Source of the DNA: Apteryx mantelli
Lineage: Eukaryota; Chordata; Aves; Apterygiformes; Apterygidae
DNA: 64,000 nt
Reading direction: 5' to 3'
Assembly: GCF_036417845.1 (NCBI RefSeq)
Contig: NC_089979.1
Location: 1,603,424 to 1,667,423 of the forward strand
Shown here: positions 2,418 to 44,905 of the stretch, one piece after another
Layout of the letters: every line of letters begins with the position of its first letter
Position numbering within the stretch: position 1 is the first letter of the stretch
The notes under the pieces: generated by a model
What the model saw: only the letters and a program-made list of their open reading frames with translations
What the model was told of the DNA's origin: nothing
Databases searched by the model: none
Program-made: the position numbers and the translations under genes

Positions 2418-2469
2418 TCAGTTGCGTTTGCTGACCATCTGCCGATCCCTCTTCTTCTTCTCCATCAAC
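2418..2469 (-). CDS. PLCG1-like: PLCG1-like exon 32: C-terminus and stop
   Basis: Encodes [16 protein letters not shown] after a split Lys codon; TGA lies at 2420-2418. The basic end resembles the PLCG2 C-terminus and not human PLCG1. Acceptor cacaccag. Confidence 0.92.
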
Positions 2470-5400
2470 CTGGTGTGGGGCGGAGAGGTGGCGTTAGCGA
2501 CCTCTCTGCCGGCCGCGGGGGCCAAACTGGGGGCTGAGGGCAAGGGTGAGCGCTGGGGCCAGCACGGCGGGGGGACTCACTTGCGGTTGCGCACTTCGGT
2601 GAGCTCCATGAGCCGCTCCTGGGCCGCCCGCAGCTCGTCGAGGCGCTGCTGGTAGCGGGAGTCGCAGTTGTTGGTGCGCTCGTAGCTGGAGACCTGGCTG
2701 GAGAGCTCGCTGGCGCGGTCGCGCAGCTGCTGAATGGACGAGTACAGGTTCTCCTCATCTTCCTCCTGCTCCAAAACAAGGACATGAGGCTCATGGGACT
2801 GGTGTGGGCACCCAGGACCCTGCTCTCCCCTTCCAGGAGGGGAAACTGAGGCACGAGGTTGGACACTGTCCCGCACAGGGAGCTCTGGGTTAAGCCGGTG
2901 AGGGAGCAGAGGGGATGTGGGGAGTCCAGGGGATGTCATGGGCCACAGGGCACCCACCTTGGCGTTGATGATCTCAATATGGATGAGGAGGGCGGCGAGC
3001 TCCAGGTCCTCTGTGTAGCTGTTCTTCAGCGGCACCGACCGATAACCTGGACGTGACATTGCAGTTGTTGCGACATGGTCCCGTCCCCTCGGCATGGCCG
3101 TTGCTGTGGGCCACGAGCGCATCGCCATCCCCAGAGCTGGCCCCCAAGGGGCTGAATTTCAGGTGGACACCCAGCGGGGATGGAGGGACCATACCTGTTT
3201 TGAGGCCCTTGACGGGAAAGGTGGCTTGTGCCAAAAAGTTAGGGTCGCTGAACATGTCCTCCTCGTACACCACGAAGCGGAGGAAGGCGAACTCGGGGTT
3301 GTTGATGTCGAAGACAAACTGCTTGAAGAGCCACACGGGGTTGAAACCGTTGTCGGCTGGTGGGTGAGGACAGAGCAGGCAGGGATCAGAGCATGGAGCA
3401 CGTGGGTGTCCATGTGGGCGGCATGTGACCTGAGCTCCCCCAGCTGCTTGTCGTTAGTGGGAGACGCCTTTCCCCCTCTGTCCTCTGGAAACCCCAGCCC
3501 CGTTAAACCACATTCCCAAGCTGGGACCCCAAAAGTCATGTTTAGGGGTTGCTGCTTCCCAGAACCGCAGGGCCCAGGCTCTCCGGACATCCCAGTAGTT
3601 ACCAGTGCCAAGGTGTGAGGGGACCCTGCCACCTCCCTGCCTGGTCCCAGGGTGAAAGGACCCGCTAGGTGCATCGCCTACACGGACCCTCACCTACAAC
3701 GTCCGTCTTGTTCTTGCTGTTGTCGTACTCGGAGCCGCACACCTCCACCTCCACGAAGGGGCACACGATGCTCCTCCCATTCTTGGGCAGGTGCCGGGCG
3801 CCAAGGATCTGGGGGAGGAGGAAGAGGAGGAGGAGGAAGAGGCTGAGGTCCAGCTGCCCTGGCCCTGTGGACTAGGAAGGACTCCTGGAGCAGCCCTATG
3901 GCTCAACCCTTTATGGCCTAATAAGCCTCACCAGGCCTTCTTGGACCTATGTATGAATTTGGACCAATTTTAGCTTGATTTTAGCCATGTCTGCAAAATT
4001 ATTTATGAAACTTGTTTTCTCCGTGACTTGCTCAGGGGTCAGATGACTACGGACTAGCCTGTCCTAGCTGTAACAGCAAAAACACCCAAAGGTGGGGTAA
4101 CGTGGTTCAGAGCTTGTTTTTCAGCTATTTTATTCTCCAGCTTGCTCTTGCTCAGGATTTGCTCAGCTCCGTGCAATGCCGCACGTGGGGAAGAACCAAC
4201 AGACCTAAGAGGTCGCGGTACAACAAATCCCGTGGAGCGATGGCAGAGATCAGAGCACATCCCACTAGCAAATATGGGGCTGAAGCATGTAAAATCACCC
4301 CAATTGACCCAAGACTGAGGAAGAAGAAAGCCCCCCATCAGCATGGCACCGATGGTGAACACCTCGGGGTGCTGGCGAGTCGCCTGTTCTCTGCTTGTCC
4401 TCCCCCACGCCACTGGCCCCCACTTGCCTGCAGCTGCACTGTGATGGGCTCCACGATCTTCAGGCTGTTCTTGTCAAAGGGGTCAAACGTCTCATCCCTC
4501 ATGATGTCGGGCTGCAGGACGTAGCCGCTGCGGCCTCCGAGCATGAACAGCGCCTGGTTCAGCTGCATCGGCTTGTCTGACAGCCGTGGGGACAGAGCAG
4601 CTCTGAGCCATGGGGCTCAGGGTTCCCCCGAGGTCCTCGGGAAGAAGGTCCTGCCCTGGGCACCCCCCCCATAGAGAGCCCCCAACCCCAGGTAGGAGAA
4701 GGGATGCAGCCGGGTATCACATGAAGCATCCAAGCATTGAGCGAGGATGTCCCCATCAGGATGGAGACAAGGGCTGGATAGAGCATCCAAGCCACATCCA
4801 GCAGCGGGACCAGGTGGGAGAGCCACCAGGGATGGGGAAAATGGGATGACCTGCAAGGGCGAGCCCACCAGCCACCCAAGGAGCAGGATTTACCAGGGGT
4901 CTGGAAGTTGAGGGCCACAAGCTGGCTGCCGCAGATCCACATGGGCAGCGGGTCGTAGTTGGAGGAATCCAAGCGCTGGCCTTTGGGGTAGATGCGACTG
5001 AGCTGGCGCCGGTTGTACTGCAGGAACTTCTTGCCCTTGCTGCGGTTGGCGTACTTCTCTGCTTTGGTCTCCGGGAAGGAGGACATGTCCCGGTAGCATG
5101 CCTTGTCTGTGCCGATCTCTGGAAGTGCAAAGGGCGGCTGTCAGTGGGAGGCTGCGGGGCTTTTGGGCTGGGCTGGTGGCCTGGAGCTCCTCAACTTCTG
5201 CCCTGGGGGCATGTGGGGGCAGTGGTGAGGCAGGGGACAAAAGGTGATGCCCCTCAGACCTGTTGTGACCACCCAGTTCCCTGCCTGCCCAGCTTTTTCC
5301 CTGATGATACCATCACCCCCCACCCCGGCTCTTACTGTCTTCATCGAACGGCACTGGGCGGCAATAAACGACGAGCTCGGAGAGCTCCAGCGCAATCTTC

Positions 5401-8400
5401 TTCCTCCGCTCCATGATCTTCCCCTCTTGCATCTGCACAAGGGAAAACAGGAGCTAAAACTATTGCCCCGCTGTGCCCCAGTCTCCCCCCAGGCTCCCAC
5501 TGTGGGGATGCTCTGCAGATGATGGCGCGGGACCATCCACCAAAACGCAACCCTTATTTTGCCCCATGGTCTGCAGAGACATCGAGGACCAGCCCTCAGG
5601 ATCCCCTCCCGCTTGGCAAAATTCGGAGGGGCTGCACCAAAAGGCAAGGCAGCGATAACCAGCTGTACACCCAGGATTTCACCCCTCGCCGCAACCAGGG
5701 CCAACTTGGCGGGGTGCTGGGATACGTGCTGCCGGGCTTGTGATCCCATGGGAAGGCTGAGCCTCCTTTCTCCCTGCCAGGGAGTGGGTGGTGCTCAGCC
5801 TCTCCAGGTCCTGTGGCACCTGGAGTGTTGCCCGGCCCGCAGCGCCCCTCACCCTGGCATCGGCGTTCTGCGTGGCCTCCCGGATCTTGGCCACCCACTC
5901 GCTGAGCTCCTCCTGCGTGTCTGCGGCCACGTCCAGTGACTGGGCTGCGTGGGACATCTGCTGGGAATGGATGGTGAAGACAAATGGTTTGGAGCTCCTC
6001 CCGTCTTTGGAGATAACTATAAGGACATCAGAGGGGGCTTTACTTGAAGAGATTCCTAACGGACGGCTCTGTGGAGCAAACGAAACCTCAGCGGTCCTGC
6101 TTGGCCCACGGCAAAGCATGGGATAGGAGCACGCTGGGGACCGCGGGTTCCCGGGTGCACCCCCTGCACCCCGGCTGACGCCTGCCTCGGCCCCTCTCGC
6201 CTGCTCTAGCCCTGCAGCCGGATTTTGGGGGCGGCAGATGGGCACGGGCGTTTGCCGGGGGCAAATCTTCACCGAGGGTGCAGGGCGGAGCGTGCAAATC
6301 TTGGCCTCGCCTGCCGCGATGCCGCCTGCAACGCAAGGCAGAGCAGAGGCTGAGTGCCCGCGACCGCCAGCCTGCCCTGCCCGGGACCTCCCGCCAGCAG
6401 CTGGCAAGCTGTAGGGATGTTCCCGCCTGAAACTGGAAATCACCAAGAAATACAACTGGGGAGAGGGGATCCGAACTTCCCCCTAAACTCCAGGGAATCG
6501 CTGAAAAATCTCTGGAAATGAAAGCAGCAACCAGAAATGCTCTGTTCTGCTGTTTTTGTAATTAAGAGTTTCAGTTTTTTGTGTTGAAATGCATTTTTCC
6601 TTCGAGCTGCCTTGTCTTGCAGGGCTAAATATCCCCCAAACTGAACCCAAACTGTTTGGACGTTACAGAATGGGTCACTTTGGCCGAATCCTTCCAAATT
6701 CAGCCCTGTTTTTCCCCTGCTGAGCGTGAGGCTGCTTCCCGCCCCCCAGCCGGAGTGAGGGCAGTGATGTTCAGTCCTTCCCTGGCTGCGGCCTTTGTCC
6801 AGCTTGGCCAGAGCATCTGCCACCTGGGAGCTGATGGTATCTGCCAGAGAGCAGGTCGACAGCAGCTCTGCAGCTGGCTGGACCCGGATGTGTGGTGAGT
6901 TTCAAGAGCCTCAGCTCATTGCATCGAACTTTAGCTTTCCCTGAACACTCCTGTTCCCTCCGTGGGGACGCAGCGGAGACACTCACCTACGTGGCAGGAC
7001 GGCACGTCGATGAAGCCCTTCAGGAAGTTCCCCAGGGGGCTGTTTTCCGATGACTGCGAGAGAGGAAGGAAGAGGGAGCGGTGAAAGGTTGTTGCGTGGA
7101 GCCCATCGCTAGCTGGCTTTGTGCCGCTCGCTTTAGCAGCCTCCCCAACCCCAAAGCCTCCCCGGGCTTTGCCAAGTCTCAGCAAAAGCCAAGAAAACAC
7201 CCTCTGCCCATTCGAACGCAGCAGCCCTTATGGACGAGGGCTGAGCCTCTCCGTGGGCTTTGCTCTGTGTCCAGAGGCGGGAGCATCCCCGGACTCTGGA
7301 CAAGGATCCACACTCAAGCAGACTCGACTCCAGGTGCGCGCGTGGAGCCAGCACGGGGACGTCCCACTCACAGCTTCATCCTGCTCCTGCGCCTGCGTGT
7401 TCACGATCTCCTCCACGTAGTTGGCCGGGAACCACAGCTGCTTCTTGCCTCCGTAGTCCCCCCGCCACCTAGAAGGGGTGAGAGGATCAAGGCAAGCGGA
7501 CCGATTCGGGGGGGGGCGGGGGTGTTAACACTGCATGCAACGTCAGGGAACATTCGGAGAGGGGAGGGACAGAAAAGGAGGCAGTTAAAACCTGTCGCAG
7601 TAACACCCACCGCCCGTGCAGCCGCTGTGGCGTGGGACAGCGCCCACAGCCCCCGCGCCCCACCGGGTTTGGGCGAGGGAACCCCAGGGGTGCAGCATGC
7701 CGTTGGAGCTGCTATCCTGGAGCTTTGGCCCCGGCGCGGCTCAGGGTGGACTTCTCCATCTCCCGGCTGCACCCTGCAAACGGCGGCGCTGGCCCCATCC
7801 CGCAGCAGCATCTCTGCTCTGCTTCCAGCCCGCCCGGCGGGGAACGTGAGGGGCCACCTGATACTTGTGCCCACTCGGTAACCGGCAAAATCCCACGCCG
7901 GGAGGCTCCCACCAGCCCTGGGCTTGCAAACAAGCCACGCTGTGATGGCACTGGACACGGAGGCTGCCCTGGGCCGCGGGGAGCGGGCTTACCAGCCGCC
8001 GTCCTGCTTGTCCACGTTGTGGATGATGGCCTGCTTGCAGAACGACAGCTCATCCTCCCGCTGGGCTTTGTAGTCATAGAGGGCCTTCACTGTGCACTGG
8101 GCCGCAGGGGAGAGAAACACGGGCGTCACTGCTTGTCCCTCAGGTGTCCCTGGCTTGGGGACACTGCCCAGGGCCGGTGGTAGTGTTCCCCGCTGAGCCT
8201 GGCTCCTCGAGCCCTGACATTTGCACATGGGTACCCTCGCTACCCAGGCTTAGCGTTCCTGGATCCAAATGATGCCCCAAAATAGCCCACGCCAATATTG
8301 AGACGTTAGACGGGGTGAAGGGTGGGGAGTTCTGGCGTTCCCGTGCGGTGTCCTCAGGGAGAGCCGCATGGCAGGGCCATGGGGGCTGCTCTGGGAAGCC

Positions 8401-11400
8401 CCATGTATCTGCTGCACCTCTAGCCTTGTGGTGGAGGAGAGCAAGGCCACGTCCTCTTGTGTCCCAGCTCTGCTGAGGGGACCTGCAGCACATGCTGAAA
8501 AGCCCCCGTGCCACCGACAGCAGCTTGAGCGACTGCTCCAGGCACAAGTCAGACAGCCACCATCACTGCCGGGTACCGACCCTGCGACTAACACATTCGG
8601 CTGCACCAGCGCAAAGTAGGTTCTACTTTTAAGTTCCCGAATGGTTTCTCTTGTTGCACTAAAGGGATTTGTCTTGAGAAATTCCTGGAAAAAAACTCTT
8701 TGGGTTAAGCCTTCCCGTGTTTGGTCTTAGCCTGAGAGCTGGTCTGCTGCAAAGAGAAGTTTAAAGTACAGCAGCATAGGGTTGTGGGATCATATGATCA
8801 CAGGATAATTCAGGTTGGAAGGGACCTCGGGAGGGCTTTAGTTCAATGTCCTGCTCAAAGCAGCTCAGCTCTGAGACCAGCATGGATTGCTCAGGGCTTT
8901 ATCCGGTCTGTGCTGGGCAGAGGGTATGGATTAGGCCAAAGAGCTTTGTGCCACATGGGGTCCCAAAGTAAGAAAGACGCTGTGGCAAAGCAGTGAAACG
9001 CCGCAGCTTTTCAGGCCCACGGTTTGGCGGGGGGGGAAGCCGGGGAGCTCCAGCTCCAGTGCCGGAATCACCATGTCCCACTGCTCTGTGCCTCCTGGGG
9101 AAGCTGGCCCAGCCTCTTACCCTGGCCATCGGCATCTTGTTGGCCTCCACGTAGAAGTGAGGGGTCCGCACCTCGTACAGGGCTCCGTAGTCCAGCTCCT
9201 GCGAGGAGAGATGCCGGAGTGGGGTCACCTGGCCTCTCGGTTGCCAGGATGGGCAGGGGACTACAAGGGGATGCTGCTGCATCCAGCTGAGGGGCAGCTA
9301 ATAGCTCTTTCCGAATAATTGGAGGGGAATTACAAAGGTGACGGAGCCAAACTCTTTGTGGCTGGGGCAGATGATATAACCCAGAGCAACGGCTGCAGAC
9401 TGCAGCTTGGCCGGGTTGGGTTGGACTTGCAGCAAATCTCCTTCGCCAGGAGGGAGCTGCAGCCCGGGGTTGGGTCCCCAGGTCTCCATCCTGGCGTTTT
9501 CCAAGCCTCAACACGGCTGCCCTGGTGCAGCATTGGCAACAGCCCTCTAGGAGGCTGGAGCAGAGACCTTCCCATTCCGAGGAAGCTCGTGACAGGGCCG
9601 GATTGCCTGCGGCACAGTGCCTGTGCTGCACAGGTTCAGCCAGCTTGCTGTAACAGTTTGCACAACCCTGCTGAAGCCTGAAGCTGCCATCCCCGCTGCC
9701 GGGAACACTCACGGTGGTGCCCATCTTCTCCAGGGTCTCCTCGTTGATGGGGTAGCGCAGCTTCATCTTGCGGTAGAGCGGGTGCTTCTCGTAGTAGCTC
9801 ACGAGGTCCACGAGGCTCTCGAACTCGGCCGAGCTGCCCAGCATGAAAAGCCGACCTTCCTGCTGGATGCGGCAGTGCTTGATCTTCCCCTCCGCCCTGG
9901 TGCCAAGAGAGCCGGGGGCGGACGTGAGGATGGTGTGGGACTCTGGCTCATTGGGGCCATGGTGAGAGGGGAGGCCTGGGCCAGGGTGGGAGGCGACGCA
10001 ATCACCCCGTCCTCGCCGCCAGCCCTGCTCCGGCGGTAAATTAATGCAGGATGCGGCCAGGATGGCAGCAGGTCACGGGGAATGTGGCTGACCGCCGTGA
10101 AGACGCACCTTTACCACCACTGGAGCCAGGGGAGGCCGCACTCACCGGAAGGAGATGGCATAAGAGTTGGGTTCGCTGCGCTTGCGCACCAGGAAGGCTC
10201 CATCCCGCGGGACCCTCATCAGCATGTGCTCGGCCTGCAGGCGCGTCAGGTTGGCGTGGTACCACCTGGCCAGGGGAGAGCAAGAGGGCGGTGGGCTGAT
10301 GCCACCACCCCTACGCCCAGGAGAGCATCCCTCACCCAACACCGGCTCTGCCACGGGGCAATGCCGGAGCCAGGCACAGGGAAAGCAGGCGAGGAGAAGC
10401 GGTGAAGCAGGAGGAGGGCAGCAGGGCCGGAGGACTGGGAGGATGGGGCAAGGGATCACCCTCACTCTTTGCTCTCGTGGGCATTGGGCTGGGGCACGGG
10501 GTCGGTGAGGCGCATCTCAAACTCGTTGCAGCGGAGCGGCACCTCCCGGTAGTGGCAGATGAGGCTGTAGAGGCTGTCGAAGACCAGGTTGTCCGTCAGG
10601 TAGAATTTGGTGGTGCCGGCTTCCTGCCGCGAGTGGATCCGGCAGTGCTGGACGCGGTTGGATCTCCTGCCAGGAGGGGAAGTAGGCGGTAGTAACAGTG
10701 CTGGGGTGCAATGAGGGGAAGCCACAGGGGTTGGCTGGTGCCCACGCCTGCATCCCAGGTCTCAGGGGAGATGCCTCCCCCCCACAGCCCCTCCTGTCCC
10801 CCCGCATGTGCCGCGACAGGGAGTGTTGGCGTCTGGGCGCTGCGAGTGCTTGAACAGCAGGGAGAAGCCCGCGGGAGACGGATTGGTCTAGAGCAAAGAC
10901 GGGAGATGGTCTGGGGGTGCAGGTTAAGATGCTTCGAGGGCAGGGCTGAGACCCTCCCTGGCAGCCACTCAACGGGCTGCGGTGGTGCTGAGCGCCCGGA
11001 GCTCCTGAGGAGCTGGGTGTCTGCACCCCATCACATCATCTCACATCTCTACTTTCTGCAGGCCAGAGCCTGCCCCTCTCGAATGAGGGGAGACGGCAAT
11101 AATCCAAATATTATTTACAAGGATCAGTATTAGGCACGTGCTGTGCAGCTCTCGGGTCCAATCCGGGTCAGGGCACCGCTGTGCAAGGTGCCGCACGCCG
11201 TGCAAAAACCCAGCGTTTGTCCCAAGACCTCTTACTGGTCATAACTTCTGCCTCTGAACTGGGAATTTGCTGGAAGGCAGCCCCCGATCACCCAGAGGGA
11301 CGCCCAGACTGGCGGACTCCTGGGGAAGGTCTGAGCCCACCGTCCTCCCCAGATGGCAGAGACGCGGACCGTCTGGGGCGTACGCGCTGGAAAGAGGATG

Positions 11401-14400
11401 GCGTGGCCACCGGGCTGGAGCTCCTACCAGAAGGAGAGGGTGTAGTCGCCCACGAAGGTCTCGCTCTCCCGCACGAGGAAGGTGCCATCCTTGCCACCTG
11501 TCTCGGTGCAGTACTCGTGCAGCAGCTTCTCGGCGATCTGCCGCCCGTCGCGGCCCCCTCCCAGCTTCCCGTGGAACCACTTCTCCGTGAAGTGCAGCTC
11601 GTTGTTGTTGAACTCCTGTGAGCGGCCAGAGACACCGGGGGGTTAGCGTCCCCCTGAACCGCGGGGCAGAGCAGCCGGTATCAGCTGGGGCATCGCGAAC
11701 CTCTCCCCCTCCCCGTGGAGACACTCGGACTCCCCAAATGCCCCCCAGAAGGTCGCGCGCCTGCCCGGCATGCACCTCCTTCTGCTCCACCTCTTCCTCA
11801 TCCTCATTGAACTGGTAGCGGGATGTCTCCTCCGAGTAGTAGATCTTGTTGCTTGTCAGGACAAAATAATGTGGGCTCCAGGTCTGGGAAAGAGAAAGAG
11901 CGTCACCGGGGCAGGGATGAGAGTGGCAGGGAGGCACGGGGCTTTGAGGTCCCCATTCCTGCCCACATCTCCCATGCAATGGCAACGGCGTAGTAGAGCA
12001 CGTGCCCCATGCCTGCTCCAAACCCCGATGCTCTCCCGTACCAGCATGTCCTGCGTCTCCATCCGACTGACCCCACTCACCCCTGACCATGGCCCTCAGC
12101 AGGAAAGGCTCTTACATGATCAATGGGGTCTTCGAGGTAGAGGATGCCATTTTTGATGGAGTTGCTGATGTCGTTCTCGGAGTAGCTGGCCGTGGAGACC
12201 TCCTCGTACAGGTTCCCTTCAACCAGCTTCTTGTGCTGGGGAAGGAACCCAGAGAGAGGAGCTCAGCAAGGGGGACGGTCACCCCATCACTCCGTGGCAC
12301 TCGCCAAGCTCCCAGCTCTCAAAGCGATGCTTGGGAAGTGAAGGTGGAGCCCTGCAGATCCCCCCATGGCTGTTTGCATCGTGGTGCCCATCTCCTGCGT
12401 ACTTCTGCACTATCACCACCACCTGCAATGTGCCAGGGGGTCCTGGAGCACCTGTTCCCAAGCCCCGCAGGTCTCTCCTTGCACAGACAGATCCCTAGCA
12501 TCCTATTATTTGGGATTTGGGGAAATCCCCATCCCTTTCAGCCCAATGTTGTCCTTGCCCCTCCCGCTCCTGCAAGGAAAGAGGAGCTTCAGGGAGGTGC
12601 CAGGCTCTGCACCTTGATAAGGATCTTCTTCTTGAGCTGCGTGGGTGACGGCAGCTCGTCGGCATTGATGTCCACTGGCTTGGTGAGCAACATGTCCCCA
12701 AAGACCTTCTTGAAGTGGGAGGCCATGTTCCTCTGCTGGACGATGCTGCAGTGGTCTTCGATGGAGAGGATGATGGGGAACCTGGAGGAAGCAGGCAGGA
12801 AAGGTGGCTCAGAGCGTCAGCTCACTTGCACTCCCAGCAGGGCTGAGCCAGAGCCTGAGGGAGCAAATGGGGAACTGTTGGCTGGGCCACAGGCAGAAGA
12901 AGTAGAGGGGAATTTGTGCAATATTCTCCTGCATGGACCAGATTTGGGGGCATTGTGTGGTGAGCACAGCCTGGGAGCTCGGAGCGGGATTGGTGCAGGG
13001 ACTGGGAGCTCTTACTCGGAGGTGACGAACGCGTGCTCCTTGATGGTGTGCAGGACATCCAGGAACTTGATCTTCGAAGTGAGCGTGTGGCCATGATAGA
13101 TGATTGGCAGGTCATCCGGGCCATCCCAGCAGTCCACTGAGCGGGGGGACACCATAGTTAATGTGTGCTGGTCTCCAACCCCGCTTCCTAACCTTGTTCC
13201 TGGCCCCCTCTTCCATCATGCAGATGCGCCATGCACTGCTCCGTGCACCGTGGAGGATGCTTTTGGGCCCCCGGGGGATGCAAGAAGGCCACCCCCACCC
13301 CAGTGCCACGGGATGTGCCTGGGGGACAGTCTGTCTGATGTGCTGCTGGGTGCTGGGGGGAGGGGGGGGGTTCACCATTGCCACGGGGTCCCAGCAATTG
13401 AGATGCCCAGCAGGGATGGGGTCACTCACGCTCGATGCAGCGGCAGCCCATGCGGAGGCAGCGGGCGTATGCCTCCAGGGAGGACTCGCTGGAGAACTGG
13501 TCCCCCGTCAGGTACCTGTAGAGGAGCAAGAGGAGCCGTCAGTGGGCTGCCTTTGCCAGGGGTAAAAGCAGGGAGGCTCCACGCAAGCACTGAGGTCAAT
13601 GGGGACGGCCTGGGGGCGAGGGGATGCTTGTGGGGCCCCAGATGCTGGGCGCTAGGAAGATGGCTCCGGAGGACAGGCTGGGGGTCCCCAAGGCGAGCCC
13701 TTCCTCTGGCTTACGTGTTGTGGGAGGAGGAGATCCAGTACTGGGAGAGGGGGTGGTTCATCTCCTCAGGCACCACGCGCTCATATTTTGAGTCCATCAC
13801 CATGTTCTCCTTGGAGAAGAGGTACGTAAGGAACTGGGGAGGAAGCAGAGAGGTTAGAGCCCACCGGGGCTGGGGATCCCTGCAGGGGCTGTCACCACGG
13901 GGGGCCCACACACCTCGTCCAGCTGGAAGGAGGGGTCTGCTGCCTCGCTGGAGCAGTCCTTGAGGTAGGTGCACATGTAGTCCCGCACCGTGCCCACGTC
14001 GCTGGCCCAGGACTCCTAGGGCAGAAATGCGCCACACGGTTTGGGAGGAGCTGGAGGCAATGTGGCAGCCAGGAAGGGGTATCCTACTGGGGTCTCCGTG
14101 GCTGGGTCGTGAGGGAACGCAGGAGGGTTTCCAAGACTGGGTCTGGGAGGGATCCCTCAAGGGTCTCCAAGACTGAGGCCAGGAGGAATCTCTGAGGGAT
14201 CTCTTAAGCCAGGGTCAGGAGGGATCTCCAAGGGTTCTCCAAGGCTGGGGCCAGGAGGGATTCCTAAGAGATCTCTAAAGCAGGACCAGAAGGGATCTCT
14301 AAGGGGCCTCTAAAGCCAGAGCCAGGAGGATCCCTGAGGGATCTTTAAGGCTGGGGCCAGGAGGGATCTGAAGTAGATCTCTAAGTTTGGGACCAGCAGG

Positions 14401-17400
14401 ATCTCAAAGGGATCTCTAAGGTTGGGGCCAGGAGGGATCTCTAAGGTACCCCCAAGACTGGAGCCAGGAAGATCCCTGAGGGATATCTAAGGCAGGTCCG
14501 GAAGGGATCTCAATCTTAAAAGGATCTCCAAGATTGGGACCAGGATGATTCCTAAGAGACCTGTAAGGCTGGGCCAGGAGGATCCCTGAGGGATCCGGAA
14601 GGCTTAGGACCCAACTGGATCTCTAACATGTCCTGCCCCCCACTGCCTGAGGACAGATCACCACTGCCATGTGCTGGCAGATCTCTTTGGCCCCAGGGCT
14701 CCAGGCAGGGCTGCTCTGTACCTAGCAGTGCTACCCCATTGCGTCCCCAGGCTGCTGGCCTTGTGCTCAGCCACGACCCATGCCAGGGGCAGATCCGTTC
14801 ACGTGGCCAGCAGCACCCTCTCCTGCATGGGTGCTGTTGGGGTCCTACCCTGTTGAAACCAGCCCATTTTTCCCGGCCCCTATCCCTGGTCTGCGGGGAC
14901 CCAGTGCTGGCTGCAATCTTTCCCCAAGGTGTGGCACTTGCCAGGGGAAATGCCAGAGTGAGACAAACTGCAGTTTTCTAATAAAAAATGTTTTCCTTTG
15001 AAACCAGTGTTGGAGATGCTGCTAGTTCCCTACAAGGAATGGGATTGTTCGAGGAGGCTGGGAGAGAGCCTGATAACTGGGAAAAGGAAGTCTCAAATTA
15101 GAAAGGAATAAACTGTTCCCTGGGACAGAATGAGAAATCACAGCCTGGCCTGGGTGGGGAGATTTGGGTTAAGCACTGGGAATGTGTCTGCATGCTGCGG
15201 CTGGGTGCTTAGCGCTGGGATGCATGGCCAGGTGGTGCAAGCAGCTGTGAGGCTTAGGGGCAGGAAGGAGCCACAGCTGGGCAGAGGTGACCCCTCTGGG
15301 GATGACACTGTGCTGCGAAGACCTCGGACATGGAGGGTCGCGTGGGCACCCACCTTCTGGTCATGCAGCAGGAACTTCTGGAAGTCGTAGAGAGAGATCT
15401 GGCACAGCTCTGGCCGGTCCACGTTCCTGGGGTATGGAGGGGGCATCAGGAGGGGAGGCAGGGAAGTTTCCCAGGGGAAAATGAGGGTGGCTTGCACCAA
15501 CCCATGGCTTGTATTCCCGAGACCCCCCTTCTCCTGCCACGCTCCCCTGCCTTTCCACGGCAGCGTGCAATGTGCTTGGGGAGCGGAGACACCACAGGGA
15601 GGCTGGAGGCACCCAAGGCTGTTACATGGGGCTGCAGTAAAGACTCCCAACTGCAGCCAGGTTGATTCGGAAGACGCAGGATCCCGGGGCTGCACCCGTT
15701 GCATTTCCAGGGGTGATGTGGAAAAGGGCAGTGCACCACCTCCCGGCCTGCCTGGCACGTATCCGGAATAACATCCCCGCACGTCACCCTAAAACCTGTG
15801 CTGACATCCCACTAACATCTGGGCCAACATACCGCTTGTTGCCCCACCACGTCCCCCCTCACGTCCCCCCTCACATCTCCCCTCACCTCCCCCTCACATC
15901 CCCCTCACATCTCCCCTCACGTCCCCCTCACATCCCCCCTCAAATCTCCCTCATGTCCCCCTCTCATCCCCCTTACATCCCCCTCACGTCCCCCTCACAT
16001 CCCCCCTCATGTCCCCCCTCACATCCCCCCTCACATTCCCCTCACATCTCCCTCACATCCACCTCACATCTCCCTCACATCCCCCTCACATCTCCCTCAC
16101 GTCCCCCCTCATGTCCCCCTCACATCCCCCTCACGTCCCCCCTCATGTCCCCCTCACGTCCCCCCTCACGTCCCCCTCACGTCCCCCCTCACATCTCCCT
16201 CACATCCACCTCACATCCCCCTCACATCCCCCTCACGTCCCCCTCACGTCCCCCTCACATCCCCCCTCACGTCCCCCCTCACATCCCCCCTCACATCTCC
16301 CTCACATCTCCCTCACATCCACCTCACATCCCCCTCACATCTCCCTCACATCCCCCTCACATCTTCCTCACGTCCCCCTCACATCCCCCTCACGTCCCCC
16401 TCACGTCCCCCCTCATGTCCCCCTCACGTCCCCCTCACGTCCCCCTCACGTCCCCCTCTCATCCCCCTCTCATCCCCCTCACGTCCCCCTCACATCTCCC
16501 TCACATCCACCTCACATCCCCCTCACATCCCCCTCTCATCCCCCTCTCATCTCCCTCACATCTCCCTCACATCTCCCTCACGTCCCCCTCACATCCCCCT
16601 CACATCCACCTCACATCCCCCTCACATCTCCCTCACATCCCCCTCACGTCCCCCTCTCATCCCCCTCACGTCCCCCTCACATCTCCCTCACATCCACCTC
16701 ACATCCCCCTCACATCTCCCTCACGTCCCCCTCACATCTCCCTCACGTCCCCCTCTCATCCCCCTCACGTCCCCCCTCATGTCCCCCTCATGTCCCCCTC
16801 ACGTCCCCCCTCACATCCCCCTCACATCCACCTCACATCCCCCTCACGTCCCCCCTCACGTCCCCCCTCACATCTCCCTCACATCCACCTCACATCCCCC
16901 TCACATCCCCCTCACGTCCCCCTCACGTCCCCCCTCACGTCCCCCCTCACATCTCCCTCACATCCTCCTCACATCTCCCTCACGTCCCCCTCACGTCCCC
17001 CCTCATGTCCCCCTAACATCCCCCTCTCATCCCCCTCACATCCCCCTCACGTCCCCCTCTCATCCCCCTCACATCTCCCTGACATCCCCCTCACATCTCC
17101 CTCACGTCCCCCTCACATCCCCCTCACATCCCCTCTTACATCCCCCTCATGTCCCCCCTCAGTTTCCCCCTCACGTCCCCCTCACATCCCCACTCGTAAC
17201 CCCACTCACATCTCACCCTCATCCACCTTATATCTCCCTCACATCTCTGCTCATATCCCTCCTCACGGAGCATATCTGCCACCCTGACCTTGCCTCTGCC
17301 GTCCAGCCTGGTCCCACGTCAAGACAGCCAACGTTGGGGACGTCACATGATACCCACGCTCCCCTATCCCACCTCCCTCCGCTGTGCTCTGCCCCCATCC

Positions 17401-20400
17401 CGGCCCCTCGTGCCCAGCCGCGCAGAGGGTGCCTGCGGTGTCCTAGGGGTCCGCGAGCGCCGCGGGGCTCCCGGCTACTCACCGCAAGGGGAAGGAGAGC
17501 TCCAGCTGCTCGATGACCTGCGAGGCAAAGGAGACACTGGGGTTAGCTAGCTGGGGACTTGATGTGACCAGCTGGGGATGCTCGGGTGGACGGGCAACAG
17601 CCACGTCTCTTACCGACTTCTGCGTGTCGAACATCAGGTTCTTGTAGAACTGGATGAAGTGGGAGAAAGTCATCTCATTCCTGGCTTCCACCTCCTGCGG
17701 CGCCGGGGAGAGGACAGCACATGAGATTGGGGCTGGCATGGGGGACCACAGTGGGAGGGTGGCCGTGCACCAGGGCACGCAGCGGGAGAGCAGTCTGCAC
17801 CCCCGGACACGATGGGGATGCCCCACAGGAGCCTGCTCCAGCCTCCTGCTCCATGTCCCTGCGAAGGTGCCAAGCCCTCCCTCCCCACGTCCCTGTGCTG
17901 CATGGCCAGGTTGGCCAGGGCACTCGAGGGGCCTTACCACGAGCTTGTCCCGCAGGAACCTCATGTTGGGCACGCGGTAGTTCACCTGGGGCAGCATGGC
18001 CTTCAGGTCCTTCACTGTTACGCTGCAGGATGGTGAGCTGGTGTCAGGGCCTCGGCCAGATCCTGCAGGACCTTCAGGGGACCCCCAGGGACCAGGCAGA
18101 GGCCAGACCTTCCCCAGATGGGTCTCCATGCTGGGCCTGGAGCTTCCAACTTGGAGGCCAGCTCCTGGCCGCCACGGAGGGGAGCTGAGCCAGGGGAATG
18201 GAGCTGGCACTGCGGGAAGCCTGGCAGAACGGGCTGTCTCCCTCCGTGGGGTCACCCCAAGCCCCCCGACGTCTCCCAATCTTTTCTGATCTCCCCAGTC
18301 TCTCACAGTCTCCTCGATCCCCCTGATCTCCCCTGATCCTGTCCATCTCCACAGATCCCCCCCAATCTTCCCTGATCCCCCACACCCAGTCTTCCTGGTC
18401 TCTCTCAATCTCCCCTGAGTCCACATGATATCCCAAATCTCTCCAGATCCCCCTAATGTCCCCTGATCTTCCCTGATCCCCAGTCTCCCCTGATCTCCCC
18501 AAACCCCCCAATCACCCCGACACCCTGCTCCCGCAATTCCGCCAATCTTCCTCAACTCCCTGATCCCCCCAGTCTCTCTTGACTCCCCCAATTTCCCCAA
18601 TTTCCTCTGACTCTCCAGTCTCCCCTGACCTCCAATCTTCCCTGCTCCCCAATCCTCCCTAACTGCCCCAGTCTCCCCACTCTCCCTTGATCTCTCTGCT
18701 CCAGCACTTTTCCATCCTCAACAACTCAGCACCCTCTGCTTGATCCCCTCCAAGTGGAGAGGATGCTGGTGAGGCTGAAGGCCAGCCAAGACCACCTGGG
18801 CAGCCCTGTGGCACAGAGCCTCCGCACCGGGGTCCCAGCACACACCTTGCTTGGCCTTGCTGGAGCCAGCCTGGTCGCTGGCTTGGGGTCCCCGACCCCA
18901 GCCAGGCTGTGGGCCATGGACCTGGGGCCTGCAGTGAAACAGCCAGCCCCAAAACACCAGCAACTAGTTCCCAAATATTCTGGAGGAGAAGAAAAATTGC
19001 CAAGCACACAGAGAGAGATGCTTACAGCATCACTCACAGCTGCTCCCTTAAAATCCCCCTGGACTGGCATGGCACTGTTGGATTTGCCCCAGAAGCATTT
19101 TTGCCTTTTTTTCCTTGTAATTAACATTGGATCGGTGCGACTATGAGAGCCCTGAGCAGAGGGGTGGGGAAAGGAAGTGCATCCAGGTGCCCCAAGCTGG
19201 CCTGTCCCATCTGGAGGTGATGCCAGCCTGTCCCCATGTTTACAGTCTGAATTAACTTGCTTTGGGTTTTTTAGTTTCTCAGGGAGACATTTATGGGGTG
19301 CATTGACGGACCATCCACTTTCCTCCTTGTGCTGGTGGAAAAGCTGTGTGCAGGCTGTGGAGCTGGTGGGCACAGGGGCATTTGGGTCCCCGTGGTCCCT
19401 TTCAGCTCCACAGGGACCTGCCGGTGGCTCACCTGCCTTCCCGCGACCTGTCCATGGCGTCAAACTGTTTCCGCAGCCACCTGGGGAAGGAAGTAAGAGA
19501 TGGTGCTCAGCCCAGGGGATCGAACCCTACAGGTGTTCATCTCCCTAGACTCCCATATGGGGCATCAGGGAGCGGCACCATTGGGGTCACAGGTCTCTCC
19601 TCACCTCTCGATCTGCAGCGGGGTCTGGGCTTTCTGGGTGTCCGCCACCAGCCAATTGAGGCCGGTTATCCACAGGTTGATGTCTTCCTCACAGAAAGCT
19701 GGAGGTGGAAGAGGAGGGCAGTGAGGCTGGGATGGGGAGAGATGAGTGGAAACAGGGCAAGGGTTGTGCTGGGGCTGAGCAAGGCCAAGATGCCTGATCC
19801 CAGGTATCGCTAACCCAGCCCCCAGGGCAGATGTCCCAAAAGCAGGGACCTCTCCCGGCCTCTTCCCGTTGCCACGTCCCAGGCCAGAGGCTGGAGATGG
19901 ATGAGGAAACCTGAGGTCGGTAGGAAAGAAGCCACGAACCGGCCACGCTGAGTGTCCGCAGCCTGAAGTCCATCCCATAGAGGATGATGAAGCACATGGT
20001 GAAGTCGAGCTTGCGAGCATCCTCCGGGTAGCGTTCGAAGTCCCGCGAGTTCTTCCCCAGGCGGATCTCCTTTATCTCCCGAATGTCGACTGCAGGGAGA
20101 GAAGGACATGGGACCGTCCCCTTCAACCCTGCCACCCGGGAAGGTGAGAGCAGGACAGGGGGCTGAGGCAGTGCCAGGACACCCATGCGCTCGGGGCTCT
20201 GGGATGTTGTTGGGAAGTGGGATGCTGCCAGTAGAGGGGATGCAAAGAGGGATGCTCTGGGATGGGGGACAGCAATGGGGTGGCCGGCACACAGGGCAGA
20301 GAGGGACATCAGTGGGGTGCAGAAACTACAGGATGGGATGGTCTGGTGCCCACGGGGCAGGACCTCGGCCCTTTGCGGTGCTGCTGGCGTCAGCATCTGG

Positions 20401-26874: not shown

Positions 26875-26876
26875 CT

Positions 26877-26891
26877 TCAGCGCGTGGCCAT
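26877..26891 (-). promoter_or_regulatory. Short upstream ORF ending 2 nt before the PLCG1-like start codon
   Basis: ATG GCC ACG CGC TGA: a four-codon uORF in another frame, whose stop ends 2 nt before the main ATG at 26874. Its context (G at -3, G at +4) is good. If the mRNA starts upstream of it, it could lower or couple initiation. This is an inference from sequence only. Confidence 0.45.
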
Positions 26892-38909: not shown

Positions 38910-38930
38910 GGGGCGCCGCGGCGCCGCGCG

Positions 38931-38957
38931 TCACGTGACGGCGCGCGCGTCACGTGA
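38931..38957. promoter_or_regulatory. Two TCACGTGA E-box palindromes, 19 bp apart
   Basis: Copies at 38931-38938 and 38950-38957, each in the context gcgcgcgtcacgtgac. TCACGTGA is the core bound by USF and MiT/TFE bHLH-zip factors. Confidence 0.7.
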
Positions 38958-38982
38958 CCGGCCAACTGCCGGCGCGGGGTGA

Positions 38983-38990
38983 TGACGTAA
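38983..38990 (+). promoter_or_regulatory. CRE/ATF-like site TGACGTAA
   Basis: Located 38 bp before the ZC3H3 ATG in the context ggtgatgacgtaaag. It is a CRE-type half-palindrome commonly found near the start sites of housekeeping genes. Confidence 0.55.
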
Positions 38991-39027
38991 AGGGGGGTGA
39001 CGTGCGGGAGCGTTGCCAGTTGCGGGG

Positions 39028-39073
39028 ATGGAGGAGAAGGAGCAACTGCGGCGGCAGATCCGCCTGCTGCAGG
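39028..39073 (+). CDS. ZC3H3: ZC3H3 exon 1 (start codon)
   Basis: ATG at 39028 in the context gcggggATGg (G at -3 and +4). Encodes MEEKEQLRRQIRLLQ, identical to the human N-terminus. Donor gtacgg, phase 1 out. Confidence 0.95.
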
Positions 39074-42000
39074 GTACGGCGGGACCCGGCGGGAGCCGGG
39101 GGGAAGGGGCGGGCAGCGAGGGGACCCGGGAGTCCTGGAGAGGGGCGGGCTGGCTGCGGGGGGACCGAGGGGCCCGGGGGGGCCGAGGGGCCCGGGGGGG
39201 CGGGGCAGGCAGTGAGGGGACCCAGGAGTCCCCGGGAAGGGGGGAGGGGCGGGCAGTGAGGGGACCCAGGAGTCCCCGGGAGGGGGGGAGGGGCGGGCAG
39301 TGAGGGGACCCAGGAGTCCCCGGGAGGGGGGGAGGGGCAGGCAGTGAGGGGACCCAGGAGTCCCCGGGAGGGGGGGAGGGGCAGGCAGTGAGAGGACCCA
39401 GGAGTCCCCGGGAGGGGGGGAGGGGCAGGCAGTGAGAGGACCCAGGAGTCCCCGGGAGGGGGGGAGGGGCAGGCAGTGAGGGGACCCAGGAGTCCCCGGG
39501 AGGGGGGGAGGGGCAGGCAGTGAGGGGACCCAGGAGTCCCCGGGAGGGGGGGAGGGGCAGGCAGTGAGGGGACCCAGGAGTCCCCGGGAGGGGGGGAGGG
39601 GCAGGCAGTGAGGGGACCCAGGAGTCCCCGGGAGGGGGGGAGGGGCAGGCAGTGAGGGGACCCAGGAGTCCCCGGGAGGGGGGGGAGGGGCAGGCAGTGA
39701 GGGGACCCAGGAGTCCCCGAGAGGGGGAGGGGCAGGCAGTGAGGGGACCCAGGAGTCTGGGGGGGGAGGGGCAGGCAATGAGGGGAACCAGGAGTCCGCG
39801 GGGGGGGAGGGGCTGGTTGCGGGGGGGCCCAGGAGTCCCTGTGGGGGGAGGGGCAGGCCGGTTGCGGGGGGACCCAGGAGTCCGAGGGGGGGAGGGGAGG
39901 GAACAGCAAAATACTCAAGGGGGGGGAGGTGGAGCGGACCCAGGAGGGCTCCTGGGAGAGAAGGAGGGGAGAGGACCCAGGCGTCCGGGGAGGGGAGGGA
40001 ACCTAGAAGTCCTGGATGGAAAGGGACAGAGAGGAGAGAACCCAGGTGTGGTGGGGGCAGAAGAGGAGAGGACCCAGGAGTCCGGCGAGGCAGGAAGCGA
40101 GTGGAGACCGGAGGATCCCCGGGGGGGGGGGGGGGACACCCCCAGGCCGCGGCTCCCTGCGGGGCTGGTGATCCCCCCGCGGGGGTGCGGGGGTGCCCGG
40201 CTGCCCCCGCGCTGGCGCCGCTCCTCCCGGCAGAGGGGCGAGATGCGGCCCCGTCCTTGCGCCCGTGCCGCTTCCTCAACCCCGCGGGGAAGCGGGGATA
40301 TATTTGCCTGCCCTTTCCTAGCCCCCGGGGAACAGCGGGTGCTTATTCTTAGGTCTCGCTCTATTTATAGACCCCAAGGTAGTTTTTCCTCGTTAGTAAG
40401 GCCGCAAACTCCGCTCGGGCCTTGCAGAGATCTGCCTCTGTCCGGGGCCTCGCGTGGCTGAGTGAAGCGAAGGCTGGCGGGGGTGTGACAAGAGGGAGGA
40501 AGGCCTGGTCCTTGCCTCCTCCAGGCCAAACCGGAGAGACCAAATAGAGACCTGGCCCTTCTGGCCAAACCTCTGGCACCGAAAACCCTCCGTTCTTTTG
40601 CCGACGGCCTCGCAGGATCCCCGCGATAAAGCGGAGGGGGGAGAGAGAGGAGTAAAGGAAGTTGTGAAGCTTGATTTATACCCGGCCGTTCTTTAGTTAT
40701 TCCTGGATCGCTTAATGCGTTTGAACGTTTTAAAGTGAATTATGGTACGTCGCGCACGGCACGAGGGTGGCTGGTTGGGGATGGAGTGCGGCTGGCCGAC
40801 CTGCCGCCGCTGCTTTTTTGGCAGCTCTGCGAACTCTCCTGTTTGGCAGCAGGAGAAACTTTTCCACGCTGGAGCACGCTGGCATGCGCCTAAAATATAA
40901 AGCTCCAAAAAAATCCTTTGGTAATCCCTTTTATTTGAAGCGTTTCATAAACGCTGGTGCTTAACGAGCTCAGACCCTCCCTAATCCGCGTGTATCTATT
41001 AACCCAACGAGTCATTAGAAAACTAGAGCACCGGGAGGCGCGGGGACTTGGCAGCGGGACGAACGTGCCGTGACTCGACGGCGGAGCTGGAGCCGCCTCG
41101 TGAGCCTCCTCCTTGCTGGTTTGTCTTTCAGCCCGTGTCAGGCTCCGTGTATGAGCAGCCCCGTACTGGTGGAAGCTGCCTGGCCGCGCCGTGGCGGGGC
41201 TCAGAGCGCTCTGAGGAGATCTGAAGCCGTATCTGGAAATAAAATCCGCTTTTTTATTTTTTATTAGGCTCCAAACGCAATAATTCAAGCGGCGTTTTTG
41301 GCGCTGGCGGCAAAGATGGGTATAAGGGGGCAAACGGTGGTTAACGGCACTTGCGCAGCGCGTGGCGTCTGCTGGTAAATCTGTGGTTTCGCTCTGTGGT
41401 TCGGGCTCGCGTTGAGCTGTCCTGCTAAATAGCTTTTGTTATCGACTTTTGCAAGGATCGAGGGAAATATTTGTTTTGAGGTTTTTCTCCCAGCGCGGGT
41501 TATCGAAAACCTGGCCTGCGTGAGCCTGTGCGGAGCGATCGCCTCCGCTGCGGCGCGAAGAAAACGGCTTCGCGGAGCCGCGATATCGTAAAACTCCTGC
41601 GGGAACGGCAATTAACAGACGCTGTCTCGTTGTCTTTAGGTCTCATAAACGACCATAAAAACGTCCATGGCAACGCGCCAGTGCCCCTGCCTTCTGCGAC
41701 GCCGCGCTGGAGGAATCCCCGGCAGCCCGCCTTCAGCAGGCGCGGGGCGTTTTCGGCTGGCTACTCCCAGCAGGCTCCCAGGGATTTCCAGCCGCGCCGG
41801 GGGAACTCCTGGAGGAAAAAGTACTCCCTCGTGAACCGACCGCCTGGACCGGCGCGTCACGCCGACAGCAGTGGGAACGCGAGCGCTTCGCAGGCTTTTG
41901 TAAGCCAAGGGGACAGCCAGGCATCCGGACCGCAAGGAGCAGCCCCGGAAAGGCACGTGGACTTGACTACGGATGGGAATATAGTTGTTGGGATCCAGCT

Positions 42001-44905
42001 GCCGCAGAGGACTGGCCCGGTTGTAAACGCTAAAAGTTTTGCTGAAGGGAGCTCTCCTCGTGAGCTTTCTGGGCTGCAAAAGGTGGCGGTTGTTCCAGAC
42101 GGCAGTAAAAATCTGCAGAAATACTCTAGCTCTCCGTACGCGAGCCAAAGCGATGAGAGAAAGCCCTCTTTCTCGGTTTCCTTGAATTCCTCGTACCAGC
42201 CTGCGAGCTCGGTGCACCTGAACGTGTCGGGCGTGCTGAGAACGGTGCGTCTGTCCGGCGAGGCAGCCCAGGGCGCCACCGCCTCCCGCAGAACTGCCGG
42301 TGAAAGTGCCGTAATGCTCAAGTCGGAGCCGCAGCAGCCTTCGGCCCTGCCTGACCGCAACCCAGCTTGCCGTTCGGTGTGGAAGAAGCCAGAGCCGCCA
42401 GTTCCGGGCCAGTCCAGCTCTGAACGGGTCAGAGATGCTCTCGGAGAGCCAAAGCTCTTCGGAAACGCCGAGACGCGCTCTAGACCTGCTCAGGCCGCCA
42501 CTTCGGCGATGGGGATGAATCCGATGAAGGGTCGATTTTCAGCGCTCTCCAAAGCGACCGGTCTCCAAAGGGCCTCCTCAACATCGGTCTCCAGCAAAGC
42601 TTCGAAATTCAGGAAAACCAATTACACGTGGGTTGCAAACCCTGGTAAATGTTCTCGTGCTGTGAAAAGATGGATGAGCCCTCGAGCTTCTGATGGGGCG
42701 AGGAAGCTCGCTGGCGGAGCAGACAGAGCGGCTAAGCTATCGCCGAAAGGAGACTTGGGAGCAAAGCTGAAGAAATCTGTCCTGCAGTCCAAACTGGGCG
42801 TTTCCCCCAGCAAGTATAAATGGAAAGCCTCCAGCCTGCAGACCTCTCCCTCCACCTCCAAGTCGGCGTTCAGGTGGCAGTCCGAGGACCAGAAAAAGGC
42901 TGGGGCCTCCGGCATCTCTAGAGCCAGCTCTGCCCCGCCGCCTCCGAATGACGCGTCTGTCGGTCACAGTGGGGTGAAGTCCTCCTTCGGCGACGCTGCG
43001 CTTTCCGGTTATAAAGTGAAGAGTCGGACAAAAATCATCAAGAGAAAAGGAAGCTCGTGGTGAGTTGCTCGTCTTGTTCCGAGTGCTGTCATTGCGCTGG
43101 CTTTATTTCATGTCCGTTGGCTTCAACGGAAGCCTTTAAGCCCTTTTCTTTATGCTCGTAGACATCTATTCTGTGCTGAATAATGCCGAAGTGATTAATA
43201 ACGAGATAATAATGTGAAGTGCACGTAAGTTGCGGACGTGTGAGCGCAATTATAACGATACGGGAGGGTATATTTGTCCTTTCCAGGTGTGGGGACTTTG
43301 CTCTGTGTGGACTCATTGTGAGGCATCGGGTTTTTAATTCTTATCAGTCCGTGCAACTCTGAATTTATCTTTCAAACAGAGGTGGGTTTTCTTCTCGTCT
43401 CCCATCCCTGTTCTCTGAAGACTTTGCCACAGCACTTAGGAGACTCCTCCCCGACCAGAATAACATACTAATATTCAGAGGGGAGGAAATAGCTTTCTTT
43501 CCTTATTGATTTGTTTTCAGACTCTCAGAGCCTCGTTACGTTGGGGGCCGGTGAGAGCAAAAGTGGCTTGAATCACCGCATCCTTTATCATCCGTCATCG
43601 TAAAGTGCTTGGCAGGCTCTGGGATGGAGGTGGGGATGGTAAATGAATTGTGCGGGCTCGTGCTTGCCGGGAAGAAGTGATACCTGGCCGTAAATGTGTT
43701 ATCGCGAGTGAAGAGCCACGGTGTTGTCACCGATGCTCTGCTGTTACCGTTCCCCCCTCTCTTTGGAGCGTGGATCGCCTCCTTTCTGCATTTTGTGCTG
43801 TCCACCAGCGTAGGTCGAGTGCTTGTGTCCTACCTGAAGCCTCACTTTCCTTTCTCCTTGTGGAGCCAGAGTGACGGATCCAGGGTCTTCCTGCTCCTGT
43901 CGCTCCCAGGAGAGTGTTTCCTGCTGCAGTTTTCAGCAGGACGGTGACGGGGCTGGATGGAGGCTCAGTGCTGCAGGGAAGGGAGATGTGGGATGTGGCG
44001 AAGCTTGGTGGCACAGCTGAGTGACCCCGTGGTATCACCTAACCGAAAAATGCGCTCGGCGCAGCGGAGGCGTGCCTTGGCTCCTTTCTCACCGCCGTAA
44101 CGCCATGGGCTCTTGCCAGCTGAGGGCTGTGGCCTTCGTAACTCTTCCAAGTGACACAACGAGCCGGTGACAGAGCCCAGGCTGAAACTCTGGGGCCTCT
44201 GGGTCCTGCTTCTGTTTCCCAGATGCTCTGCTCGTCAGTGCATCACAGCTCTCCATCCTTGGCTTGTCCTCCTGGTTTCTTGGGGGACGTGTCTGCTGGT
44301 AGATCATGCTGGGAAAATGACTTTGGAGTGAGGTGCCTGGAAAAGTTGGGATTTTTTGTGTGTTTTTTTGTTTTTTGGGTTTTTTTTTTTTTGACTGTCA
44401 TGGTTTGATCCTCTTGGCTCTCCAAAGGACACTGTCTTCTCCCCTGCATCTGTTGGACAGAAGCCAGAAGGGAGCTGAGTTTGACTGTCAAACACCTCAT
44501 TCTCCATCTGCACTTTGCTAGAAATCCGTTGCGTTTGCCTGTTGCACTTTTTTATCCAATATGTCTCATCGCCTTTGCGTAGGGGAGCAGCGTGGAGGAG
44601 AATGGTGTTTGGTGACCTGGCTTCTCTTCCCGGCAGCGGGCAAGGGGACCAGTGTGTCTCGGTTACCTCTCGACCTTCTTCTAACTGTGGTGTGTTGTGC
44701 CTTCACAGTTCCCCAGCGGATAGGAAGAGCAGCTCCTCCCCTGCCACACCTCTGAAAAGCCACTTCCATCTCAGGAAGAAAAACTCCTCGCGGGGGAAGC
44801 CTTCCGCGACGTTGAAACGCTCCTCGCCCAAGGGCCTCGTGCAGATCACCAAGCACAGGCTGTGCAGGCTGCCGGCCGCCCGGATGCAGGTCTCTGCCAA
44901 GGAAG
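39028..44905 (+). CDS. ZC3H3: ZC3H3 (SMICL) 5' part: three coding exons, gene continues beyond the window
   Basis: ZC3H3 is a nuclear CCCH zinc-finger protein implicated in mRNA polyadenylation and export; the Xenopus homologue Smicl is a Smad-interacting CPSF30-like factor. Joined exons encode about 554 codons: MEEKEQLRRQIRLLQ at the N-terminus (as in human), then GLINDHKNVHGNAP, WRKKYSLVNRPPGP, FRKTNYTWVANPGK, SKYKWKASS, YKVKSRTKIIKRK and KGLVQITKHRLCRLP, all in the human order. Between these islands the sequence is low-complexity and Ser/Lys-rich, as in the family. The five CCCH fingers and the exon with the KTRYRIVKK block are absent and must lie past 64 kb. The gene is divergent from the PLC gene, with 12.15 kb between start codons. 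Confidence 0.95.
39200..39780. repeat. 44-bp G-rich minisatellite, about 13 copies, in ZC3H3 intron 1
   Basis: The phrase gcagtgag recurs at 39253, 39297, 39341, 39385, 39429, 39473, 39517, 39561, 39605 and 39649, exactly every 44 bp, then at 39694 and 39736. The unit contains gggacccaggagtccccggg and a run of 7 or more G. Degenerate copies extend from about 39090 to 40130. Confidence 0.96.
40140..41639. other. Rest of ZC3H3 intron 1, no gene seen
   Basis: GC-rich up to about 40360, then mixed composition. No repeat family or exon is recognisable. Confidence 0.5.
41640..43059 (+). CDS. ZC3H3: ZC3H3 exon 2 (large exon)
   Basis: 1420 nt, acceptor tctttag, donor gtgagt. Contains the conserved blocks LINDHKNVHGNAP, SWRKKYSLVNRPPGP, KFRKTNYTWVANPGK, SPSKYKWKASSLQ, SAFRWQSED and YKVKSRTKIIKRKG. 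The open frame extends upstream of 41640, but that part is intron: it lacks similarity and follows the acceptor-less side. Confidence 0.96.
43060..44708. other. ZC3H3 intron 2
   Basis: Flanked by donor gtgagt and acceptor ccttcacag. It holds a T-rich run at about 44350-44393 and no recognisable exon or mobile element. Confidence 0.6.
44709..44905 (+). CDS. ZC3H3: ZC3H3 exon 3
   Basis: 197 nt, acceptor ccttcacag, donor gtagga. Encodes SPADRKSSSSPATPLKSHFH then LRKKNSSRGKPSATLKRSSP and KGLVQITKHRLCRLPAARMQ. Human ZC3H3 has KGLVQVTTHRLCRLPPSR. The frame stays open for a further 360 bp into the intron without similarity. Confidence 0.93.

Follow-up and report, generated by a model that had tools for sequence, protein, structure and literature searches.

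The window analysed here, a stretch of 64,000 nucleotides from Apteryx mantelli (C2:1603424-1667423, on a 173-Mb contig), contains an intact gene for a gamma-type phospholipase C (PLC-gamma) that lies head to head with ZC3H3. As a central switch, PLC-gamma links receptor tyrosine kinases and immune receptors to calcium signalling, and the usual descriptions of it give two genes, PLCG1 and PLCG2. The gene in the window is read as a third vertebrate PLC-gamma, distinct from both, sister to PLCG1 and kept from the early vertebrate whole-genome duplications in a block with MAFA, ZC3H3 and TOP1MT, with a probability of about 0.93. This reading is carried by the intact gene, separate PLCG1 and PLCG2 genes in the same genome, a tree position outside the bird and mammal PLCG1, the linkage of all three copies to MAF genes and conserved exons. 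These results support the original prediction, which was made from the letters of the window and proposed a third whole-genome-duplication copy beside ZC3H3. The duplication was presumably a round of whole-genome duplication, with the copy retained since early vertebrates, and mammals, which have two PLC-gamma genes, would have lost it.

The gene model on the minus strand comprises 32 coding exons with 3891 nt, encoding 1296 amino acids (aa) followed by one terminal stop. The protein was recovered in order and with zero frameshifts by spliced alignment, using a human PLCG1 sequence as guide. The start codon was set at the ATG at 26874 and the last exon at 2469-2418, the acceptor of the latter being picked among candidates by its likeness to the end of PLCG2. 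Of 31 introns, 30 are GT-AG, and intron 27 is GC-AG, opening with a GC donor (GCAAGT) at 4422-4427. The complete gene that had been noted head to head with ZC3H3, 12 kb away, is present, with 12,154 bases between the start codons at 39028 and 26874; the model has 1296 aa where the earlier figure was 1290. Matches above the Pfam cut-offs were obtained for PH, EF_HAND_1_PLCG, EF_HAND_2_PLCG, PI-PLC-X, SH2 (two stretches), SH3, PI-PLC-Y and C2. The protein thus combines both halves of the catalytic core with EF hands and a C2 domain, and has, between X and Y, two SH2 domains and an SH3 domain enclosed by the halves of a split PH domain, as in the PLC-gamma family. The second PH half was matched by Pfam at residues 871-932, while the first half aligns with PLCG1 at 77%.

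The exon structure is shared with both relatives in the same genome. Exons 1-31 are equal in length to the corresponding PLCG2 exons or differ from them by multiples of 3, and the PLCG1 exon-length series also matches from the 94-nt exon onward, the exceptions being the last exon and a short exon that is represented by two pieces in the PLCG1 model. This conservation is consistent with duplication of a whole block of DNA and argues against a retrocopy.

The genome (1.504 Gb in 408 contigs) was searched with the PI-PLC-Y profile, and 8 of 23 matches were read as loci. Among these, at least three are PLC-gamma genes, namely the window gene (L004) and two others (L005 and L006), and the two-gene picture of PLC-gamma fails in this genome. 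A PLCG1 orthologue was found by spliced alignment on the plus strand of C18 at approximately 7.466-7.497 Mb, ending in RTRVNGDNRL as in human, and a PLCG2 orthologue with 32 coding exons on the minus strand of C10 at approximately 5.668-5.730 Mb. Exon 1 of this PLCG1 lies outside the stretch read, and its unreliable start before DIREIKEIR was trimmed prior to tree construction. The same-genome PLCG1 is identical to human PLCG1 at 1080 of 1217 positions (89%) and to rat PLCG1 at 1020 of 1137; the same-genome PLCG2 matches human PLCG2 at 1063 of 1263 (84%). The window protein shares 871 of 1212 residues (72%) with the same-genome PLCG1 and 872 of 1184 with rat PLCG1, compared with 683 of 1256 (54%) with the same-genome PLCG2. 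Two further loci, L007 and L008, match the gamma proteins weakly when compared by sequence, and for this reason we take them to be other PLC types.

For the phylogeny, six sequences with 1109 gap-free columns were analysed under the JTT, LG and WAG+F+R3 models. PLCG1 of bird and mammal forms a fully supported clade (100%) whose stem measures 0.204, and the window gene falls outside it on a branch of 0.128, the shortest of the three PLC-gamma copies. Nesting the window protein in bird or mammal PLCG1 costs 78.4 (JTT), 77.8 (LG) or 81.0 (WAG+F+R3) log units, and the approximately unbiased (AU) test rejects both nested trees under all three models (p <= 4.4e-5). Placing it beside bird PLCG2 loses 615-639 log units, and it thus does not group with PLCG2. 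The site counts agree with the PLCG1 clade: at 200 of the 1109 columns bird and mammal PLCG1 agree with each other and the window protein differs, compared with the almost symmetrical counts of 34 shared only by the window and bird PLCG1 and 27 only by the window and mammal PLCG1, the remainder being identical in all (787), different in all three (36) or set aside because the two mammals disagree (25). At the 313 sites separating PLCG1 (rat and bird identical) from PLCG2 (human and bird identical), the window protein agrees with PLCG1 at 187 and with PLCG2 at 46, and at 80 it differs from both. The split appears older than that between birds and mammals, as the stem of 0.204 compares with 0.048-0.079 accumulated since the latter. 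With three PLCL-type frames from this genome as the outgroup (643 columns), the tree joins the window gene to PLCG1 as its sister at 98% bootstrap support, and both alternatives have an AU p of 0.025, which amounts to moderate support for this root.

All three PLC-gamma genes sit in the MAF paralogon, since each is linked to one large MAF gene. A genome-wide search with the bZIP_Maf profile gave 13 matches, of which the best six were read; these comprise three small Mafs and three with large-Maf sequence, and we take the latter, on C2, C18 and C10, to be MAFA, MAFB and MAF. The distance from a PLC-gamma gene to its large MAF stays below 1.2 Mb in all three pairs read, for which rough arithmetic on 1.504 Gb gives a chance probability of about 1e-7. 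Flanking of the locus by MAFA, which had been suggested as a check, was found, with the gene 0.17 Mb away on the same contig. Of the proposed quartet of MAF regions, at least three large MAFs, each on a contig with a PLC-gamma gene, were recovered among the best six of the 13 matches. All eight Topoisom_I matches fall at two places, on C18 at 7.42 Mb, which is 40 kb from where the recovered PLCG1 exons begin, and on C2 at 2.10 Mb, 0.47 Mb from the window gene; these loci presumably represent TOP1 and TOP1MT, respectively. The window gene therefore shares a common paralogon with the other copies through MAFA, MAFB and MAF and two TOP1-type genes, whereas the neighbours of a PLCG1 orthologue, an adjoining TOP1 and a nearby MAFB, flank the C18 gene.

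The residues required for a PLC-gamma are conserved. From a list of 27 functional positions, with roles and numbers after PLCG1, 25 could be judged, meaning that the residue named by the label was present, and the window residue is the same as in PLCG1 at all 25. The label Y1253 was misplaced by one, and the intended tyrosine one place on, in SRYQQ, is conserved; S1248 was not judged. The catalytic histidines, Ca2+ ligands, FLVR arginines of the SH2 domains and activating linker tyrosine are all kept, in agreement with the earlier claim of intact catalytic, SH2 and tyrosine residues. The linker contains the three PLCG1 tyrosines Y771, Y775 and Y783, including the activating one (FYVEAN), and the equivalents of Y472, Y481 and Y977 are also present. 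The tail is mixed, with tyrosines at the sites that we take to be Y1197 (LYSS) and Y1217 (SSYE) of PLCG2, together with the SRYQQ tyrosine of PLCG1. The former are missing in human and bird PLCG1, which have F and V or G there, and the latter is missing in PLCG2. The tails of PLCG1 and PLCG2 as encoded in this genome have the same pattern, so the comparison does not depend on the human sequences.

Compared with PLCG1, the window protein agrees in domain order, in these catalytic residues and PLCG1-type tyrosines, and at 70-74% identity with the three PLCG1 sequences compared, but differs in tree position, in the two tail tyrosines and in its locus beside ZC3H3 and MAFA rather than TOP1 and MAFB. 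With PLCG2 it shares the two tail tyrosines, several SH2 and SH3 states and the number of 32 coding exons, but it has split-PH and linker residues at PLCG2 gaps, and PLCG2 is a separate gene on C10.

Judged by these residues, the third PLC-gamma is probably a tyrosine-kinase-regulated hydrolase of phosphatidylinositol 4,5-bisphosphate (PIP2) with regulatory inputs of both relatives, as PLCG1-type linker tyrosines and PLCG2-type tail tyrosines are both kept. The enzyme would be recruited to phosphorylated receptors or adaptors through its SH2 domains, and the linker tyrosine that corresponds to Y783 would be the target of a tyrosine kinase. The phosphorylated tyrosine would then pull the C-terminal SH2 domain off the catalytic core, and the freed X/Y core would cleave PIP2 into inositol trisphosphate and diacylglycerol. 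The PLCG2-like tail tyrosines may give the enzyme inputs that PLCG1 is without. A more speculative and rather doubtful possibility is that birds, and perhaps other non-mammalian vertebrates, keep in this gene the PLC-gamma nearest to the common ancestor in sequence, a single enzyme with PLCG1 linker and PLCG2 tail tyrosines serving both growth-factor-type and immune-receptor-type kinases, and that mammals lost it and kept these roles apart. With a third intact copy present, redundancy may go unnoticed when PLC-gamma genes are knocked out in chicken cells or in any bird model. The copy also offers a third, slow-evolving reference for sorting ancestral PLCG1 and PLCG2 traits, such as the tail tyrosines that PLCG1 is without.

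Several alternative explanations were considered. That the window gene is PLCG1 itself, relocated beside ZC3H3 in this lineage, would fit its being nearer to PLCG1 (873 of 1184, PLCG1 row of the PDB) than to PLCG2 (679 of 1256). The probability of this is negligible, because the same genome holds a better PLCG1, 89% identical to human, with a TOP1-type gene and MAFB on its contig, and because nesting costs about 78 log units. The original prediction had itself stated that the gene is not PLCG1 and that nesting inside amniote PLCG1 would overturn it; another PLCG1 near TOP1 exists, as does PLCG2, and the protein does not nest in the bird and mammal PLCG1 clade. In a rate test of relocation, the PLCG1 branch from the window split (0.198) exceeds half the rat-human distance about 17-fold (95% range 12-26); the same-genome PLCG1 settled the rejection. 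A younger, fast-evolving duplicate of PLCG1 that arose within birds or reptiles by tandem, segmental or retro-copying would be compatible with the single species examined, and with PLCG1L being counted among chicken lineage-specific genes (PMC10591418). This is improbable, as the window gene has a short branch and a large share of the divergence falls on the PLCG1 stem common to bird and mammal, the conserved introns rule out a retrocopy, and a duplicated block would account for the links to MAFA and to a second TOP1-type gene.

An older or independent duplicate could also have come to lie near MAFA and ZC3H3 by chance, and the root, with its bootstrap of 98%, AU p of 0.025 and distant outgroup, is compatible with this; the linkage of all three genes to large MAFs makes such a coincidence highly improbable. 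There is a small chance that the gene is a third ohnologue encoding a non-working enzyme, either silenced or catalytically altered. The 1296 open codons, the canonical introns with one GC-AG, the intact catalytic residues and the shortest branch of the three copies argue otherwise. Some points weigh against a third ohnologue or limit its description. Three is a minimum count of PLC-gamma genes, taken from 8 of 23 PI-PLC-Y matches. Under the conservative Shimodaira-Hasegawa test, the nested trees give borderline values (p 0.0503 JTT, 0.048 LG, 0.044 WAG+F+R3), and the PLCL-type outgroup is very distant (branch 1.39), making long-branch effects possible. The age of the copy rests on linkage and branch lengths in a single bird species compared with mammals. 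The human PLCG1 and PLCG2 sequences agree by eye with PDB rows that end before the tails, and the ZC3H3 guide is a partial human sequence of 824 aa. Normal working of the enzyme is predicted from its residues.

In the literature, PLCG1L is an annotated chicken lineage-specific gene expressed in breast muscle, according to PMC10591418, and the symbol itself points to a second PLCG1-type gene in a bird. The passages on it give no sequence, locus or function, and the match to the window gene is by name alone; it may well be the same gene under another name. In that case, the label "chicken-specific" would be mistaken, because the tree dates the gene before the bird-mammal split. The titles and abstract openings returned by a full-text literature search contain no description of a third PLC-gamma; the word PLCG3 occurs in three of the papers found, as a word match only.

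Table. Features of the PLC-gamma and ZC3H3 genes (positions in the window) and large Maf genes of the genome (positions on contigs).
Feature	Position	Strand	Remarks
Third PLC-gamma gene ("PLCG3"), whole	2418..26874	-	32 coding exons, 1296-aa model
Exon 1, with ATG at 26874	26655..26874	-	within CpG-rich stretch, CpG observed/expected ~1 at 26200-27799
Exons 2-4: remainder of PH domain, EF hands begin	19433..20089	-	spliced alignment, Pfam
Exons 5-10: EF hands and X domain start to catalytic motif SSSHNT (runs on into exon 11)	13715..18022	-	
Exons 11-13: catalytic X domain (GCRCIELD, second catalytic His, KILIK)	12613..13515	-	
Exons 14-15: N-terminal half of split PH; PLCG1-type Y472 and Y481 equivalents	11776..12235	-	
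Exons 16-19: both SH2 domains, each with FLVR arginine	9713..11615	-	
Exon 20: regulatory linker, PLCG1-type tyrosines Y771, Y775, Y783	9121..9198	-	
Exons 21-22: SH3 domain	7372..8096	-	
Exons 23-27: second half of split PH and catalytic Y domain	4428..7053	-	
Exons 28-30: C2 domain	2958..3808	-	
Exons 31-32: C-terminal tail; PLCG2-type tyrosines (NLYSS, SSYE) and PLCG1-type SRYQQ tyrosine; stop 2418-2420	2418..2768	-	
ZC3H3 exon 1 (MEEKEQLRRQIRLLQ)	39028..39073	+	human guide protein
ZC3H3 exon 2	41640..43059	+	spliced model splits at 42427/42494; single frame open throughout 41480-43063
ZC3H3 exon 3	44709..44905	+	human guide protein
Large Maf, read as MAFA	C2:1,804,861		0.17 Mb from nearest end of window PLC-gamma; bZIP_Maf match
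Large Maf, read as MAFB	C18:7,157,581		0.31 Mb from nearest end of PLCG1; bZIP_Maf match
Large Maf, read as MAF	C10:6,898,482		1.17 Mb from nearest end of PLCG2; bZIP_Maf match

In intron 7 of the PLC-gamma gene, an 11-base unit (CCCCCTCACAT) is repeated about 126 times over 1.4 kb (15854-17266). Minus-strand tails resembling the 3' end of avian CR1 occur at about 8826 in intron 20 and at about 53094. Downstream of the gene, a GC-rich and CpG-rich stretch at 301-2100 has four long frames without a Pfam match and is possibly the promoter of a next gene. Pfam gave zero matches for eight frames of the window outside the PLC-gamma model, some covering ZC3H3 or the frame of PLC-gamma exon 1, and the tRNA search and the Rfam search at the gathering threshold found nothing in the window. 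When viral contigs were scanned with a 401-aa piece, four pattern matches came up, none of which was confirmed as a relative.

The three PLCL-type frames used as outgroup are long and unbroken, with 868 (L001, C6:16,052,808), 902 (L002, C28:666,791) and 825 aa (L003, C2:129,741,445); they are PLCL-type by look and mutually 61-70% identical over 643 columns. As mammals have two PLCL-type genes, one of the three may be another extra ohnologue.

The first three exons of ZC3H3 span 39028-44905 on the plus strand. The later exons seem to lie beyond the window, since tblastn of the 824-aa guide gave no match in the window past guide residue 520. Directly after exon 1, intron 1 of ZC3H3 contains 16 copies of a 44-base repeat with a 92% match at 39194-39901.

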